From positions 2,197,001-2,261,000 of the forward strand of contig NZ_CP030126.1 in NCBI RefSeq assembly GCF_003568845.1: a stretch of DNA of 64,000 bases. Direction: 5' to 3'. Positions 15,683 to 36,544 of this stretch are shown here, one piece after another. Under the pieces are notes generated by a model that was not told where the DNA came from, made no database searches, and was given only the letters and a program-made list of their open reading frames with translations. Made by a program: the position numbers and the translations under genes. The stretch comes from Indioceanicola profundi. GTDB taxonomy: Bacteria > Pseudomonadota > Alphaproteobacteria > Azospirillales > Azospirillaceae. Position 1 is the stretch's first letter. Each line of letters starts with the position of its first letter.

Positions 15683-16714
15683 ATGCCGGATCTTGAATGG
15701 CGGCTCCTGCTGCTGCCCCTCGGGCTCGGCATCGTCCTGGCGGCGCTGCACGACCTGTTCGTAACCACACTGACGGTGCGTGGCGGCGGCACGCTCTCCG
15801 GCCGTTTCGCGCAGGGTGTTTCCCGCCTCGCCATGGTTCTGGGTCACGGGCGCTTTCCACTGGGTGCGATGTACTACAACGGCATGATCGTCCTGATCGG
15901 GATCATGCTGCTGTGGGTCGGGATGCTCTGGGCCGGATGGTCGCTGGCCTTCTCCGCGCAGGCGGACTCGGTGGTTCGCGCCAGCAACAATGTACCGGCC
16001 GGCACGGTCGACCGGGTCTATTTCGTCGGCTACACGCTGTTCACCCTGGGGCTTGGCGATTACCGGCCGGCAGGCGGACTCTGGCAGATATTGACCGTGC
16101 TGGTAGTGGCCAGCGGCCTGCTGGCGGTCACGCTGATCATCACCTATGCGCTCCAGGTCGTCACCGCCGCCTCAACCAAGCGGCAGGTGGCGGCGACCAT
16201 CGGCTGCCTGGGGCATACGCCCCGCGACATCCTCTGCCGCGCCTGGGATGGAAAGGGCTTTCCCGCTTTGGGCAACCAGCTGACCAGCCTGATCTCCCCG
16301 TTGGTGCAGGTCAGCCAGCAATATCTGATGTTCCCGGTCCTTCCCTATTTCCACGGACGCCAGCCGCAGCTTTCCCTGGGTCTGGCCGTTGCCGTACTGG
16401 ATGAGACCCTGCTGATGCTGGAGCAATGCACGTCACGGGAGCAGTCGCTGCCGCCGGCCGTCCTGGCTCCCTTGCGCCATGCCATCGGTCAATTGCTGGA
16501 CACGCTGGAGTCCGCCCATATCGACCCGGCCTCACATGCGCCGCCCCCGCCCGATGCCGCCCAGCTCTCCGGGATCGGCATGCCCGTGCCGCAGCAGGGC
16601 TGCCTGACAGCCCGTTGCCAGAAGGAGGAGAAGCGGCGGCGTCTGCTGCTGGGCTTTCTGCAGAGCGAAGGGTGGAGCTGGAACGATGTCCATGGCGGCC
16701 GTCCATCCGCCTGA
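15683..16714 (+). CDS. Two-helix potassium-channel-like protein with atypical filter
   Basis: Membrane protein of 343 residues. Hydrophobic segments lie at about 8-28, 66-91 and 132-158, with a pore loop ending in TLFTLGLGDYRP (residues 118-129), equivalent to the TVGYGD selectivity filter but reading TLGLGD. The last 190 residues are cytoplasmic and helical, with no TrkA or cyclic-nucleotide domain that I recognise. Channels of this group are found near stress genes in alphaproteobacteria. It follows the proline-rich gene by 9 bp. The replacement of the central Tyr by Leu may alter ion selectivity. Confidence 0.75.
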   Translation: MPDLEWRLLLLPLGLGIVLAALHDLFVTTLTVRGGGTLSGRFAQGVSRLAMVLGHGRFPLGAMYYNGMIVLIGIMLLWVGMLWAGWSLAFSAQADSVVRASNNVPAGTVDRVYFVGYTLFTLGLGDYRPAGGLWQILTVLVVASGLLAVTLIITYALQVVTAASTKRQVAATIGCLGHTPRDILCRAWDGKGFPALGNQLTSLISPLVQVSQQYLMFPVLPYFHGRQPQLSLGLAVAVLDETLLMLEQCTSREQSLPPAVLAPLRHAIGQLLDTLESAHIDPASHAPPPPDAAQLSGIGMPVPQQGCLTARCQKEEKRRRLLLGFLQSEGWSWNDVHGGRPSA

Positions 16715-16765: not shown

Positions 16766-16790
16766 GGAACATGGCGGGACCGCTAGGGTT
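16766..16790 (+). promoter_or_regulatory. EcfG-type promoter candidate (GGAAC-N16-GGTT)
   Basis: GGAAC at 16766-16770, 16 bases, GGTT at 16787-16790. It sits 36 bases ahead of the di-haem cytochrome start. It differs from the GGAAC-N16/17-CGTT consensus at one base. Confidence 0.5.
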
Positions 16791-21582: not shown

Positions 21583-21608
21583 GGAACGTTCGGACGGGCC
21601 CATGCGTT
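21583..21608 (+). promoter_or_regulatory. EcfG-type promoter upstream of actA (GGAAC-N17-CGTT)
   Basis: GGAAC at 21583-21587, 17 bases, CGTT at 21605-21608: a full match to the published general-stress sigma consensus. The expected transcript would have a leader of about 60 bases before actA. Confidence 0.65.
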
Positions 21609-25905: not shown

Positions 25906-27000
25906 ATGAAATTCCTCGTGGCCATGAGCCGGCCCAGCCGGCGCGGCCATCTGCAGTCCACCACCCGCCTTATCCGCACCCTGCGGCGGACGGCGACGTG
26001 GATCGTCTGCGTGCTGGCGCTGCATATCCTGGCCATGATCATTTTCGAGGGGATGGTTCCCTTCGACGCACTCTGGCTCACGGCGACCACAGTGATGACG
26101 GTGGGCTATGGCGATCTCTCGGCCGCCACCGTGCCGGGCCGAATCTCCACCATGGTGCTGATGTACATGGGCGGCATCTACGTGCTGGCGAAAGCTGTCG
26201 GCGACTACACCGACTATCGCGCCCAGATGGCCAATGAGAAGGCGCGCGGAAGCTGGAGGTGGAACATGAGGGGGCATCTGCTGATCATCGGGCAGCCTGT
26301 GGGCAATGCGGAGCAGTACTTTATCCGGCTGACGGATCAGATCCGCGCCCATGAGAGCTGGATCGACATACCGATCCTGCTGTTGACGGAGGTGTTCCGC
26401 AACCGCCGCCTGCCCTCCAGCCTTGCCGACCGGGGCATCGCCCTTTGGACCGGCAATCCGACCGAAATCCAGTCGCTGGAGGCTGTAACGCCTGCCGATG
26501 CGCGGGCGGTCGTTGTCTTGGCCGAGAGCGGAACGGACAGCGCCGCCGACGCCGGCGTCTTCGACACTGTGGACCGCATCCGCGGCGCCGGCTTCGTCGG
26601 GCCGATCGTCGCGGAATGCGTCGACCAGCTCAACCGCAGCCGCCTGATGCGGGCTGGCGCCACCACCGTGATCCGCTCCGTCCATGGTTTTCCGGAGATG
26701 GCGGCCCGCGCCCTGGTAGCGCCCGGCGCGGAAAGGCTGGTGGAGAACCTGTTCACGGCGGAGGGCGACGAGTGCCGGCGTTACGAGTTGCCGGAGATCT
26801 GGCACGGCACCTGGACCGAGCTGACCCTTCGTCTCGTCACGGCGGAGATCGGCATCCCGCTCGGCTACGCGGACCCGGAAGGGTGCATCCATAGCAATCC
26901 GGTCGGCCGGGCCATCGAGGCGCGGGCGATCTTCGTGATCGTGCACGACCGGCATCAGGCATCCGCACAAGTGCAGATCGCGCGCCTCCTGCGCGGGTAG
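25906..27000 (+). CDS. Potassium channel with TrkA-N-like cytoplasmic domain
   Basis: 364-residue channel protein. A first helix lies at about residues 29-48, the filter TVGYGD at 65-70 is intact, and a second helix spans about 80-97. A cytoplasmic domain follows with a Rossmann-like start (HLLIIGQPVGNAEQ) and a VVVLAE strand, as in RCK/TrkA-N domains. The dinucleotide loop is degenerate (GQPVGN rather than GxGxxG). Ribosome site GGAGGGG precedes the ATG at 25906; the much longer upstream frame is not used. Predicted role is potassium efflux or sensing, perhaps during stress, given the promoter box upstream of its leader gene. Confidence 0.85.
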   Translation: MKFLVAMSRPSRRGHLQSTTRLIRTLRRTATWIVCVLALHILAMIIFEGMVPFDALWLTATTVMTVGYGDLSAATVPGRISTMVLMYMGGIYVLAKAVGDYTDYRAQMANEKARGSWRWNMRGHLLIIGQPVGNAEQYFIRLTDQIRAHESWIDIPILLLTEVFRNRRLPSSLADRGIALWTGNPTEIQSLEAVTPADARAVVVLAESGTDSAADAGVFDTVDRIRGAGFVGPIVAECVDQLNRSRLMRAGATTVIRSVHGFPEMAARALVAPGAERLVENLFTAEGDECRRYELPEIWHGTWTELTLRLVTAEIGIPLGYADPEGCIHSNPVGRAIEARAIFVIVHDRHQASAQVQIARLLRG

Positions 27001-27045: not shown

Positions 27046-27070
27046 GGAACACATCCCGCCCCCTCTGGTT
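27046..27070 (+). promoter_or_regulatory. EcfG-type promoter candidate for PRC-barrel genes (GGAAC-N16-GGTT)
   Basis: GGAAC at 27046-27050, 16 bases, GGTT at 27067-27070. The start codon follows 76 bases later. A perfect 14-bp palindrome CCCGTCCGGACGGG lies just upstream (27022-27035). Confidence 0.5.
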
Positions 27071-27146
27071 GGCTACGTGGGCATCGTGCATCCGGCAAAA
27101 TGGATGCTGCGAGCCTGCAACTTCAGGCTTAAGCGGAGGATCGTCG

Positions 27147-29072
27147 ATGCGAACGCACCTGTTCACGGCGGCCATTGCCCTGGCAGTGGCGGCCTTTCCG
27201 GCCGCGTCATGGGCGCAGGAGCAGCAACAGGATCAGCGGCAGCAGCAACCACCCGAGAACCAGCTCGCCCAAGCGCCGCCCGCAGCTCCGCCGGCTCCCG
27301 CCGGTCAGCAGGATCAACTCGCCCAGCATCTGCAAAGCGCCCAGGACCGTCTGCGTACGGCACAGCAGGAGCTTCAGGCAGCCCGGGATGCCCGGGACCC
27401 GCAGCGCGAGGAAGCGGCGCGACAGGCCGTGTCGGATGCATTGACCCGGTTGGGCGATGCCCTGTCCTCTGCGCAGCAGCAGGTAATGGCGGCGCTGGAC
27501 GCGTTCCGGACCGGCGGACCTGAGGGCGACAGCGCCGCCCAGCGCGTCGCGGGCCTCATGCAGATGCCGGCAGCCGATCCCACCGACGTGAATGTGCGCC
27601 AGCTCGCTCCGCAAGTGGCTGTGAACGCGGCCGCGCCGCAGGTGCAGGTGGAGCAGTTGCAGCCCCGCGTGGCAGTGAACCAGCAGAGCCCGAACGTGGT
27701 GGTGGAGCAGCCGCCGCCGCAGGTGCAGGTCCGACAGCCCGCCCCGCGCATCCGGGTGCGCCAGTTCCCGCCGGAGATCATCGTCCGCCAGTTCGAGCCC
27801 GAAGTGATCATCCGCCAGCGTGAGCCGGAGATCATCATCGAGCAGGCCGACCCGGAGATCACCGTCAACCAGGCGGAACCCCAGGTCGCCGTGAACATGC
27901 AGCAGCCCACGGTCGAGGTCCAGGCGATGGAGCCGCGCATCAGCGTCGCCCAGCCGGAGCCGAACGTGGATGTGTCGATGGCCCAGCCGCTGGTGAATGT
28001 GGACCCCGGCCGCCCGGCCGTGGCCGTCCAGCAGCCGGAGCCCGAGGTCCGGGTCGAGCAGCAGCGTCCGGAGGTCGCCGTCGATCCCGGCCGTCCGGTC
28101 GTGGACGTGCAGCAGCCCGCGCCGGAAGTCGAAGTGGAGACACAGCAGCCGGAAGTGGCCGTACGCCAGCCCGAACCCGAGGTGCAGGTGCGCCAGCCCG
28201 AACCGCAGGTCCAGCTTGACCCTGGTCAGCCGGAGGTGAATGTCGAGCAGGAGCGCCCCGAGGTGGCGGTGACGCAGCCTGAGCCGCAGGTGCAGGTCGA
28301 GCCCAGCCAGCCGCAGGTGGACGTCCAGGCTGCCCGGCCCGAGGTGAACGTGCGGCAGCCCGAGCCGGAAGTCGCGGTGAACCAGCCGGCGCCCGAGGTT
28401 CAGGTCCAGCAGCCCGAACCGCAGGTCCAGGTCGATCGTGGCCAGCCGCAAGTGAATGTGGAGCCCGCTCGTCCCGAAGTCGCGGTGCGCCAGCCCGAGC
28501 CCGAGGTGCAGATTCAGCAGCCCGAGCCGCAGGTCGAGGTTCAGCCTGGCCAGCCTGACGTGAATGTGCAGGCGGCCCGGCCGGAAGTCACGGTGCGTCA
28601 GCCCGAGCCGGAAGTCGCCGTTCGTCAGCCTGAGCCGCAGGTGAATATCGATCAGGCGCAGCCCGACGTGACTGTGCAGCAGGCCCAGCCCGATGTGGCG
28701 GTCAGGCAGCAGGGGCAAACAGACGTGCAGGTCGCGGATGCCGGGTCCGCCCAGGCGCCTGCGCCCGCCCAGCAGGGCAATGAGCGGATGAACCGTCTCA
28801 TCGGCGTGGCGGTCTATGGCTCCGACAATGAGGAGCTGGGCCAGGTCGAGGATCTGTTGCTCGCCCCGGAAGGCGGCGGCGTGCGGGACGTGGTGGTCCG
28901 TATCGACGAGGGTCTGCTAGGCGATGACCGGCTGATCCTGGTTCCTTACAGCCAAGTGCGGATGCGCGGCCAGGATCTGCTGATCCCGATGAACTCCGAT
29001 CAGGTCGAAGCCGCGCCAGAGTTCAATTACGAGGCCGATGCGAACGCCCTTCTAGGCCCGGATGCGCAATGA
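27147..29072 (+). CDS. Exported PRC-barrel protein with about 42 tandem nonapeptide repeats
   Basis: 641-residue secreted protein. Order: signal peptide ending SWAQE (about 1-24), Gln/Ala-rich helical part (25-150), a run of about 42 nine-residue units of pattern x-x-x-P-x-V-x-V-x (152-529), a linker, and a C-terminal PRC-barrel domain beginning MNRLIGVAVYG (about 547-625). Typical units read QPEPEVQVR, QPEPQVQVD and AARPEVNVR. The alternation of Val with polar residues and the fixed proline suggest an extended beta-solenoid or rod in the periplasm. AGCGGAGG precedes the ATG. It overlaps a smaller paralogue by 4 bp. Function unknown; similar repeat-PRC proteins occur in other alphaproteobacteria (recalled), usually linked to stress. 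Confidence 0.88.
   Translation: MRTHLFTAAIALAVAAFPAASWAQEQQQDQRQQQPPENQLAQAPPAAPPAPAGQQDQLAQHLQSAQDRLRTAQQELQAARDARDPQREEAARQAVSDALTRLGDALSSAQQQVMAALDAFRTGGPEGDSAAQRVAGLMQMPAADPTDVNVRQLAPQVAVNAAAPQVQVEQLQPRVAVNQQSPNVVVEQPPPQVQVRQPAPRIRVRQFPPEIIVRQFEPEVIIRQREPEIIIEQADPEITVNQAEPQVAVNMQQPTVEVQAMEPRISVAQPEPNVDVSMAQPLVNVDPGRPAVAVQQPEPEVRVEQQRPEVAVDPGRPVVDVQQPAPEVEVETQQPEVAVRQPEPEVQVRQPEPQVQLDPGQPEVNVEQERPEVAVTQPEPQVQVEPSQPQVDVQAARPEVNVRQPEPEVAVNQPAPEVQVQQPEPQVQVDRGQPQVNVEPARPEVAVRQPEPEVQIQQPEPQVEVQPGQPDVNVQAARPEVTVRQPEPEVAVRQPEPQVNIDQAQPDVTVQQAQPDVAVRQQGQTDVQVADAGSAQAPAPAQQGNERMNRLIGVAVYGSDNEELGQVEDLLLAPEGGGVRDVVVRIDEGLLGDDRLILVPYSQVRMRGQDLLIPMNSDQVEAAPEFNYEADANALLGPDAQ
27600..28733 (+). repeat. 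27-bp coding tandem repeat, about 42 units
   Basis: DNA counterpart of the nonapeptide array: period 27 bp over about 1.1 kb, with units diverged at third positions in the first third and more alike in the last two thirds. The later units also form a higher-order pattern of two to four units (for example PxxP..., QPEP..., QPEP...), which suggests recent segmental duplication there. Confidence 0.85.
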
Positions 29073-29914
29073 TGCCCGCCAGAGCCATGGAGAAGAAGAT
29101 GATGCGGACAACCCTTCCCTTCGCAGCCGCCCTGGCCCTTCTGCTTCCGGCCGCCGGCTGGGCGCAGGAGCCCGGCGGGCCGCAGCCGGCTCCGGACAAG
29201 CCGGTTGGCGCCGACATCACGGTGCAGCAGCCGACGCCGGATGTGACCGTGCGCCAGCAGAAGCCGGACGTCACGATCCAGCAGGCCCGGCCGGACGTGA
29301 ACCTGGATGTGGCGCGCCCGGTGGTCAATGTCGACACCCCGCCCCCGCAGGTGCAGATTCAGCCTACGGAGGGTCAGGTGCAGGCGCAGATCAACCGCGC
29401 CCAGCCCCAGGTCGATATCCGCCAGGCCAAGCCGGTGGTCAACATCCAGCAGGCTGAACCGGAAGTCATCGTGGAGCGGGCCGAAGGTCCTCCCCAGATT
29501 TCCATCCAGAAGCTGACGCGGGAGCAGGCCGAGCTGGCGGATATGGGCATCCAGCGTCGCGAAGACCTCGTCGGCATGACCGTGGTCGACCGCGAGGACC
29601 AGGAGATCGGCTCCGTCAGCGATCTGATGACCCAGAATGGCCGTATCCAATCGGCCGTCGTCCGGCAGGAAGGCGGCTTGTTGAGCGGCGACAAGATGGT
29701 CGCTGTCCCCTGGAGCGCGTTCCAGGTGGACCAGGAGAACAAGCGTCTGCGCGTTCAGATGAGCGAGGATGAACTCAGGGAAATGCCCGAGTTCAACTAC
29801 GACGAACAGACGCAGCAGCAGGCGTTGGTCGGCCCCGAAGGCCAGCAGCAGCAGCAGCAGCAGCAGCAGCCGCAACAACAGCAGCAGAACCCGGAACAGC
29901 AGAGCCAGCGCTGA
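29069..29914 (+). CDS. Second PRC-barrel protein with nonapeptide repeats and polyQ tail
   Basis: 281-residue exported paralogue of the preceding gene. Signal peptide ends AAGWAQE; about ten nine-residue units follow (such as QPTPDVTVR, QQKPDVTIQ, QAEPEVIVE, residues about 48-146); then a PRC-barrel domain (REDLVGMTVVDREDQEIGSVSDL, about 163-245) and a glutamine-rich tail with nine consecutive Gln. The ATG at 29069 overlaps the previous stop (ATGA). An internal ATG at 29099, preceded by GGAG, would also leave a good signal peptide and may be the true start. The operon ends at a strong hairpin. Confidence 0.87.
   Translation: MMPARAMEKKMMRTTLPFAAALALLLPAAGWAQEPGGPQPAPDKPVGADITVQQPTPDVTVRQQKPDVTIQQARPDVNLDVARPVVNVDTPPPQVQIQPTEGQVQAQINRAQPQVDIRQAKPVVNIQQAEPEVIVERAEGPPQISIQKLTREQAELADMGIQRREDLVGMTVVDREDQEIGSVSDLMTQNGRIQSAVVRQEGGLLSGDKMVAVPWSAFQVDQENKRLRVQMSEDELREMPEFNYDEQTQQQALVGPEGQQQQQQQQQPQQQQQNPEQQSQR
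29843..29869 (+). repeat. (CAG)9 microsatellite
   Basis: Nine perfect CAG codons in the polyglutamine tail of the second PRC-barrel protein. Length change by slippage would stay in frame and alter only the tail. Confidence 0.9.
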
Positions 29915-29937: not shown

Positions 29938-29965
29938 AAAGGCCGCGGGGCAACCCGCGGCCTTT
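29938..29965 (+). terminator. Terminator of the PRC-barrel operon
   Basis: AAAGGCCGCGGG, loop GCAA, CCCGCGGCCTTT: a perfect 12-bp stem with a GNRA-type loop, 24 bases after the stop. Short T and A flanks occur on both sides, so it could serve both directions. Confidence 0.8.
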
Positions 29966-35143: not shown

Positions 35144-35169
35144 GGAACCTGGAAGTGGAGCGGATTGTT
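35144..35169 (+). promoter_or_regulatory. EcfG-type promoter candidate for DUF1328 gene (GGAAC-N17-TGTT)
   Basis: GGAAC at 35144-35148, 17 bases, TGTT at 35166-35169, 62 bases before the start codon. One mismatch to consensus. Confidence 0.45.
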
Positions 35170-35231: not shown

Positions 35232-35396
35232 ATGCTCTACTGGGCGCTGATATTCTTCATTGTGGCAATTGTCGCCGGCATCTTCGGATTCGGCGGCGTT
35301 GCCTCTGCATCGGCCGGGATCGCGCAGATCCTGTTCTTCATTTTCCTGGTGGTATTCGTCGTCTCGCTCATCATGGGCCTGGTGCGGCGGCGCTGA
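35232..35396 (+). CDS. DUF1328 (YtjA-type) small membrane protein
   Basis: 54-residue protein made of two hydrophobic helices ([18 protein letters not shown] and [17 protein letters not shown]) and a basic end RRR. This is the complete DUF1328 signature, including the [15 protein letters not shown] turn. The family is widespread among stress-induced genes; the function is unknown. Its 3' end overlaps the convergent anti-sigma gene by 26 bp. Confidence 0.92.
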
Positions 35397-35862
35397 AGCC
35401 GGCGTCGCCGTCCCAGGACTGCGGAGCGAAATCCTGGATATCCAGGATAAGCCCGCCGGACACCACGGCCATCGCCACGGCCGCGGCGATTCCGGCCACG
35501 GCTGCCATACGGGTGCGGGTGCGCCGTACGCGCATCCGCTCCTGTTCCGAGCGCCGCCGGGACAGCACAGCCAGGAGCTGGGGCGGAATCGGCTCTTCCA
35601 GGACGGGATCGTAGAGGGCATGCAGCCCGTCCACCTGGGCCCGATAGGCCACGGCGCGCGCGGCCATCTGGGGATCGCGCGACAGGCATTGCCCCACGGC
35701 GGCTGCCATGCGGGCCGGCAGCTCCCCGTCTATCCAGGCGTGGACATCGTCCGGGTCGGCCAACGGCTTCGCCCTCGCCCCGGCGGACGGGCCGGCCGGA
35801 ACCAGGTAGAGGCGGTGCGCCTCGCGCCGGATGGGGCGCCCGTCAGGCAGTTTCCCGCTCAT
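35371..35862 (-). CDS. Transmembrane anti-sigma factor
   Basis: 163-residue partner of the upstream ECF sigma factor. An N-terminal cytoplasmic domain begins [19 protein letters not shown], the standard anti-sigma helix, followed by one transmembrane helix ([21 protein letters not shown], near residue 130) and a short periplasmic tail. No HxxxCxxC zinc motif is present. The start at 35862 overlaps the sigma gene by 20 bp; an in-frame ATG at 35898 also exists. The periplasmic end is too short to be a sensor domain. Confidence 0.85.
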
Positions 35863-36544
35863 GCGCCGGCTCGACCCCGTCATCTGCCGCTCCGCCATCC
35901 ATCAACAGGCGCAGGGCGCGCCGGCCGCGGGAGAGGCGGGATTTCACCGTGCCGATGGACACGTCCAGGATTTCCGCCGCTTCGGCGTAGCTGATGCCTT
36001 CCAGCCCGATCAGCAGGACGACTTCACGCTGCTCCTGCGGAACCTTGTCCAGGGCGCGCCGCAGATCGCGCAGTTCCAGGCGCACCACCTGGGAGCCATG
36101 GCTGCCGCCCAGCCCGGTCTGAACCTCGCCGTCGATATCAACGAAGGTCTGCTGACGGCGGATGCCGTTGATGTGCAGATTGCGCAGGATCGTGAACAGC
36201 CACGCACGAAGGTTCGTGCCGGGCTGCCATAGATGCAGACGGCTCAGCGCGCGTTCCAGGCATTCCTGCACCAGATCGTCGGCCAGGGCCGTATCCCGCA
36301 CCATGGCGCGGGCAAAGCGGCGCAGGCGGGGAATTTCCGCCTCGATCTGGGAAATCACCTCCGGGCTGTTCTCAGCCCCCCGGCGCGGCTCCTGTCCGGC
36401 CTCAGGCGCAACAACCGCCTGTGCCGCCGGCGCGCTGTCCTGCGGAGCGGCTGTCGACCTTGCCTCGGTCCTACGACCCGACGTGGCCGGGGTATCGCCG
36501 TCCATCATGTAACCCCACTGCTTAGGTTCGCTTGGTTCAGCCAT
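35843..36544 (-). CDS. ECF RNA polymerase sigma factor
   Basis: 233-residue ECF sigma factor. Region 2 is LRRFARAMVRDTALADDLVQE through LRAWLFTILRNLHINGIRR, and region 4 is VPQEQREVVLLIGLEGISYA with the helix-turn-helix AAEILDVSIGTVKSRLSRGR. About 65 disordered residues precede region 2, more than in most ECF factors. It is paired with a membrane anti-sigma factor. It is therefore not the PhyR/NepR-controlled EcfG itself, though GGAAC-type promoters are used by several related ECF groups. No GGAAC-type autoregulatory box was found upstream. Confidence 0.9.
   Translation of the reverse strand: MAEPSEPKQWGYMMDGDTPATSGRRTEARSTAAPQDSAPAAQAVVAPEAGQEPRRGAENSPEVISQIEAEIPRLRRFARAMVRDTALADDLVQECLERALSRLHLWQPGTNLRAWLFTILRNLHINGIRRQQTFVDIDGEVQTGLGGSHGSQVVRLELRDLRRALDKVPQEQREVVLLIGLEGISYAEAAEILDVSIGTVKSRLSRGRRALRLLMDGGAADDGVEPAHERETA

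Follow-up and report, generated by a model that had tools for sequence, protein, structure and literature searches.

The analysed stretch of Indioceanicola profundi (64,000 nt of contig NZ_CP030126.1; hereafter the window, to whose positions all coordinates refer) carries two adjacent genes, A and B, whose products combine a signal-peptide-like start, a tandem array of nine-residue units and a C-terminal PRC-barrel. We find that most alphaproteobacterial genes for such arrays, B genes apart, are preceded by EcfG-type promoter sites. The linkage of the array family to this promoter, as read from upstream sequences, is a new result, and EcfG-type regulation of array genes is well supported on these grounds. 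A stress-regulated, exported-looking A/B pair is the firmest part of our reading. Beyond it, we see about an even chance that A and B make up a stress-induced, length-variable, beta-rich envelope scaffold whose subunits may pair through their PRC barrels and arrays. The general stress response serves the survival of heat, salt and starvation in Alphaproteobacteria, and an array family tied to its promoter would be a concrete, testable structural candidate within it.

EcfG sites of Sphingomonas melonis have the form GGAAC-N17-20-GTT (PMC6599016), and gene A has such a site with a 17-nt spacer (Table 1). This assignment is further supported by a scan of the 300 nt (280 in one case) before 25 alphaproteobacterial array genes, B genes apart, in which GGAAC-N17/18-GTT precedes 18, the spacer being N17 in 17 cases, and the sites begin 72-139 nt ahead of the start codon; of 417 other open frames in these loci and in two additional ones, 11 carry a site (Fisher P 3e-19). 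Of four further array genes of the class, three add N17 sites, in G430 (-103), G439 (-84) and a second gene of G030 (-116; genomes are given by our labels), bringing the total to 21/29, one further Paracoccus array match being left out of the counts. Array genes are not independent, and counting the like genes of Skermanella (three groups) and of Paracoccus once gives 15/20. Across 657436 bases, strands summed, spacers of 17 and 18 nt account for 26 and 22 sites and each other length from 10 to 25 for 3-13, an excess to which the array genes contribute. The array genes read outside Alphaproteobacteria have no site.

Within the I. profundi genome, the upstream stretches examined have the site before 3/3 array genes other than B vs 2/12 array-less PRC frames; these numbers are small, and they suggest that carrying a PRC domain does not by itself explain the link. 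The genome also encodes PhyR, with sigma-like and receiver domains, a NepR-like protein (27.3 bits, cut-off 25.7) and several extracytoplasmic function (ECF) sigma factors as candidates for EcfG. The preliminary description of this DNA, which did not mention these promoters, had proposed study under salt or desiccation, and that guess gains weight because EcfG-type promoters were found. We further note that about 1.5 kb separates the PhyR gene (L172 844-1683; L184) from a different gene with a PRC domain.

The array of A is strictly periodic. It has 41 strict P-x-[VIL]-x-[VIL] motifs with 40/40 intervals of exactly 9, and one looser unit at the start completes the unbroken run of 42 units and 378 residues that had first been described. 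Identity at lag 9 is 0.45, vs a mean of 0.13 and a maximum of 0.19 in shuffles (n=1000). The unit is xxxPxVxVx with Q most often at position 1, and the composition is rich in Q, E and P. B has 9 strict motifs at intervals of 9, 9, 9, 9, 20, 9, 9 and 11, with 7 units in one register plus degenerate ones, so the earlier estimate of about 10 units is fair.

Comparison of all pairs among the 42 units of A indicates that the residues that define the unit are kept. Codon positions 1/2 differ in 5% of pairs at P4, 21% at V6 and 22% at V8, vs 56-85% at the other six unit positions, and third positions at P4, V6 and V8 differ in 49%, 52% and 61%. Third positions have thus diverged while the residues stayed, which argues that the array is old and kept. 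Overall, 41-69% of unit pairs differ at third positions; the array, taken as a whole, is therefore not a very recent expansion, whereas the preliminary description had taken its later units to point to a recent one, and recent slippage as its sole origin is rejected on the same comparison. That description had also grouped the later units in pairs and fours. Tandem Repeats Finder (TRF) places them in blocks of 3, 4 and 8 (periods 81, 108 and 216 nt; 71-77% matches), not in pairs. When 378 units from 23 proteins are pooled (of 25 scanned, after exclusion of two B genes that have 3 units apiece), P4 is found in 340, V/I at position 6 in 375, V/I at position 8 in 353 and Q1 in 267, counts that are partly built in, since the run finder required such residues and permitted single misses only. 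The unbroken 42-unit run of A and its free third positions are stronger evidence than these pooled counts.

An array of this kind could also arise by chance or from the antisense frame of some other repeat, or be the functionless product of recent replication slippage. Such artefacts do occur: in G410 the profile matches a P-x-V-x-V array that comes from the frame antisense to RTX repeats, and a 503-aa open frame runs opposite the array of A itself. The in-frame start, the PRC domain and the conserved relatives argue against such an origin for A, as do the fixed first two codon positions at P4, V6 and V8 with free third positions, and we give it almost no credence. The G410 match was rejected as a relative; its locus (L103, G410:C1:780000-793000) encodes long RTX repeats, whose complementary strand translates into almost flawless SLPSPPVTV nonapeptides and can thereby mislead repeat profiles. 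RTX nonapeptide beta-rolls share with A the nine-residue period and often many units. The RTX unit is GGxGxDxUx; it is absent from A, where Gly does not rank among the three most frequent residues at any unit position.

A 117-residue core of 13 units is gap-free in an alignment of 13 proteins, whose register runs are 42, 31, 27, 27, 27, 20, 16, 15 and, in five cases, 14 units, with A of the window the longest among the arrays read. A disordered array with no unit conserved across orthologues, which the preliminary description had set against its own view, is as a whole not what we find, the unit being kept in other genera and orders. In the conserved core, several units have Ile or Val at position 7 as well, and such residues may mark a site of packing or nucleation. 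Since the unit is constant and the length of the beta repeat would vary between relatives, the array would be a simple natural system for such variation.

Structure prediction is consistent with an ordered core. An AlphaFold2 model of full-length A from six sequences has a predicted TM-score (pTM) of 0.25, with a confident helical hairpin and PRC-barrel, and within the array aa 161-270 form EEEEE---- units at a predicted local distance difference test (pLDDT) score of 56-81. The core modelled alone (126 residues, from nine rows that include three further array blocks taken from A and a relative) reaches a pLDDT of 84.3, with a strand of 4 or 5 residues in each of 14 units and a turn of about 4 residues per unit. 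The core is thus predicted to have one five-residue strand and a turn per unit. In such a model Val6 and Val8 would lie on a common face of each strand, a face that would be buried in a solenoid or a two-layer stack.

These observations suggest how A and B might work. Their genes would constitute a small operon under an EcfG-type sigma factor, activated in the alphaproteobacterial general stress response, and both proteins would be exported. Each array would be a run of amphipathic beta strands of variable length, one strand per nine residues, with Val6 and Val8 on one side, polar residues mostly on the other, and Pro4 and Gln1 at the turns. Arrays could then assemble, by stacking or pairing, into a stiff beta-rich element that nucleates at the conserved core and has its length set by the number of units, and the PRC barrels would connect A with B or with further proteins of the envelope. 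A and B might in this way reinforce the envelope mechanically under osmotic, heat or drying stress. The array and its conservation, the PRC domains, the recurrent adjacency of A and B and the EcfG-type site are read directly from sequence, and the strand-turn units of the core are predicted; we infer export, induction, co-assembly and envelope reinforcement. A bolder version, which we consider rather doubtful, is that a previously undescribed beta repeat fold, with one strand per nine residues and a length that evolves freely (14-42 units among close relatives), forms stress-induced envelope rods in Alphaproteobacteria, in which the two neighbouring PRC subunits co-assemble and the unit number acts as a ruler. 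If true, such rods would give the large part of the EcfG regulon that has no known function an envelope-spanning structural component; in Sinorhizobium meliloti, rpoE2 overexpression raised 202 genes, and 150 of these have no predicted function (PMC3616915).

Several observations weigh against the scaffold reading or parts of it. No site precedes 8/29 array genes, namely A of G027, three A genes of the Skermanella genus and the genes of P. marcusii, G170, G104 and G770, the start codon of the last of which could not be placed. Nor does one precede the B genes scanned, 4 in one scan and 5 in another with 3 common to both (B of G007 in the first only, B of G032 and of G002 outside both); induction of B therefore rests on its following A, as it does in 8/8 long-type loci read. 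In favour of the reading, stress-regulated PRC-barrel genes have been published before (papers used in this work are PMC6599016, PMC6180224, PMC3989490 and PMC3616915). They include SMb20522 of S. meliloti, in the RpoE2 list with a printed RpoE2-type site, #1478 of Sphingomonas melonis with a printed EcfG site (PMC6599016), and M. loti mll3685 in the third row of heat-raised genes. SMb20522 and #1478 resemble A, with its C-terminal PRC-barrel, in having EcfG/RpoE2-type sites, and the likeness of these published genes to A is documented for PRC and regulation, not for an array. None of 23 matched plasmid records comes from Sinorhizobium.

On the structural side, aa 272-546 of the full model have a pLDDT below 50, with most of the array tail at 28-45, and the core model has a pTM of 0.31. 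Foldseek finds 123 matches of the core in the PDB at E<=10 and none at E<=0.001, and the best VIA-align match has Z 4.1 and a root-mean-square deviation (rmsd) of 9.6, although a missing fold-library match excludes no fold. The beta-solenoid or rod proposed in the preliminary description is supported as far as one predicted strand per core unit, and the solenoid arrangement itself stays conjectural. The top Foldseek rows are a phage collar and tail entry and pore-forming toxins (TM-score about 0.2). In the viral library the best match, an uncharacterised herpesvirus protein (E 3.7e-3, probability 0.99, TM-score 0.29), was set aside as a repeat-pattern match.

The low scores of aa 272-546 favour the main rival to an ordered beta element, a disordered spacer. 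Here the array would be an unfolded, hydrated, Pro/Gln/Glu-rich spacer or protectant (hydrophilin-like) with drifting unit number, folding being confined to the PRC-barrel and the helical hairpin, and A would still be a stress protein. The Q, E and P content fits this, as do the variation in unit number from 42 to 14 among the 13 relatives and the long irregular Pro/Gln/Ala stretches that follow the array in G002 and G032. It is harder to reconcile with nearly fixed codon positions 1/2 at P4, V6 and V8 beside varying third positions, with 13 units free of insertions and deletions in 13 proteins, or with the pLDDT of 84 in the core, and we judge it possible but on balance unlikely.

The PRC-barrels claimed for both proteins are confirmed by Pfam (PF05239; A 35.3 bits, B 42.6, cut-off 21.2), and the signal peptides claimed for both appear as signal-peptide-like segments, recognised by reading the sequence without a predictor. 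The predicted PRC-barrel of A (pLDDT 81-93 as ten-residue means over aa 551-630) aligns over aa 537-624 with 3htr_B (Z 10.0, rmsd 4.5, 83 residues aligned), and 3htr is also the only solved relative from the sequence search (E 0.011, PRC part). A profile of the B type returns 12 rows, comprising 3htr, 1pm3 (MTH1895), PRC-barrel entries, reaction-centre H subunits and two rows at E>0.5. In CdpB1/CdpB2 of Archaeoglobus fulgidus (8qzo, 8onw), PRC domains pair with a different PRC protein as a PRC heterodimer, and the PRC-barrel of A aligns with these entries at Z 8.5 (rmsd 3.5, 84 aligned) and 8.3 (rmsd 3.2, 76 aligned). To our knowledge, CdpB1 and CdpB2 have no array.

A also matches DUF6470 (PF20074) in 8 stretches (49.1 bits, cut-off 28.9), whereas B falls below the cut-off (16.1 bits). 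This family we take to be that of Bacillus subtilis YviE, from a flagellar operon. The setting here differs, in that the neighbours of A/B identified in the part scanned (ion channel, cytochrome c, Fe-S respiratory subunit and acyl-CoA dehydrogenase) are not flagellar, and the match may reflect a common repeat pattern rather than descent. No NCBIfam model exceeds its cut-off for A or B. The literature searched has no paper that joins the PRC-barrel with a nonapeptide repeat, or with tandem repeat and solenoid, and nothing on DUF6470 or the array.

Relatives of A are found in scattered genomes. A core profile matched 12/82 genomes of the family at E<=1e-8, and the gene is therefore patchy. Reading identified long-type or related array proteins in G009, G027, G032 and G002 as well as in five genomes from a single genus; B of G032 and of G002 has just 3 units in register. 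B as query matches 32/59 genomes (its own included), many over the PRC part only. With a wider profile, 11/385 genomes of the class matched at E<=1e-4, five of which were upheld on reading (G000, G007, G104, G128 and G170), and 10/398 of the phylum at E<=1e-5, seven of which were upheld (G000, G613, G770, G798, G818, G746 and G716, four of them outside the class). Rejected matches are an acidic stretch of another protein (G181), the linker of a CheA-like protein (G489) and Pro-Leu-rich, probably antisense frames (G114 and G676); G343, G378 and G711 have no array frame at the matched locus and, like G045, are counted neither as relatives nor as rejects. Plasmid records add array genes from Paracoccus and Pelagibacterium. 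Neither the array core (by tblastn) nor contig C3 of the I. profundi genome matched plasmids, and viral contigs gave 8 pattern matches with no relative among them.

Some of these relatives have features of their own. A mobilizable-typed 13.5-kb plasmid of Paracoccus liaowanqingii bears an array and PRC gene with an EcfG-type site (L126 1863-2849), and a second plasmid of the same strain bears a very similar gene. In the alphaproteobacterium G128 an EF-hand region lies ahead of the array, and G798, outside the class, encodes an EF-hand protein with an array and no PRC, beside an array protein whose end resembles a PRC-barrel by eye (loci L100 and L159).

The genomic surroundings raise a further alternative, that A and B are secreted or outer-surface matrix proteins which bind exopolysaccharide or link the outer membrane and capsule, and not a rod in the periplasm. 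Genes for MlaA and polysaccharide functions (glycosyltransferase, flippase-like), at 9.3-15.4 kb, and one for a 3-keto-disaccharide hydrolase lie 11-18 kb upstream of A, with about 12 kb containing respiratory and ion-channel genes in between. Relatives of the MlaA and polysaccharide genes recur in G002, some 7 kb or less from its array pair, an MlaA relative lies within about 5 kb of the pair in G009, G032 and G002, a YjbH gene lies 3 kb downstream of A/B, and an FkbM methyltransferase gene precedes the Pelagibacterium array gene. All of this would suit a matrix protein. The stretches from the Skermanella genus, on the other hand, have no relatives of those window genes (limit 1e-15), the short Paracoccus stretches, which reach 2 kb to either side, have none annotated, and Pfam and NCBIfam scans place no domain for cell-wall or polysaccharide binding in either protein, so that we regard this alternative as improbable.

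Table 1. Positions of genes A and B, their parts and associated sites in the window.
Feature	Positions	Strand	Basis
EcfG-type promoter GGAAC-N17-GTT, starting 101 nt before gene A	27046..27070	+	upstream scan
GGAGG ribosome binding site of gene A	27135..27139	+	sequence reading; 7 nt before ATG
Gene A, array + PRC-barrel protein, 641 aa	27147..29072	+	open reading frame (ORF), Pfam, motif count
Signal-peptide-like segment of A, aa 1-23	27147..27215	+	sequence reading
Predicted helical hairpin of A, aa 53-121	27303..27509	+	AlphaFold2, ten-residue pLDDT means 68-95
42-unit nonapeptide array of A, aa 143-520	27573..28706	+	motif and register counts
Most conserved array part of A, aa 197-241	27735..27869	+	alignment of 13 relatives
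PRC-barrel of A, aa 547-614	28785..28988	+	Pfam, predicted structure
Gene B, array + PRC-barrel protein, Gln-rich tail	29099..29914 (longest ORF from 29069)	+	ORF, Pfam
First array block of B, 7 units	29201..29389	+	register count
Second, degenerate array block of B	29396..29509	+	motif count
PRC-barrel of B	29555..29773	+	Pfam
Perfect 12-bp inverted repeat 3' of B	29938..29965	+	sequence reading; no T run
EcfG-like site, N18, before DUF1328 gene (35232-35396)	35144..35169	+	upstream scan
ECF sigma factor, ~6 kb from A/B	35843..36544	-	best of the genome's 11 Pfam PhyR_sigma2 matches

The longest ORF of B has 281 aa, and the 4-nt overlap of A and B exists for this ORF only. A start of B at 29099 or 29102, 26 or 29 nt past the stop of A, is likelier because GGAG at 29089-29092 precedes these putative starts. 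The inverted repeat 3' of B is a possible operon end; a terminator-like site is listed there on the - strand only. The end of B (29843-29887) has 15 CAG-type codons in a row (TRF period 3, 90% matches), a possible slippage site, and a Gln run likewise terminates B of G009.

Elsewhere in the window, an N17 EcfG-like site (16766-16790) precedes a 659-aa ORF without a Pfam match (16799), and an N18 site (21583-21608) precedes a cytochrome c3/c7-type gene (21678) beside respiratory genes. Two ion-channel genes (Ion_trans_2; 15683-16714 and 25990-27000) flank the respiratory genes, the second of them directly preceding A.

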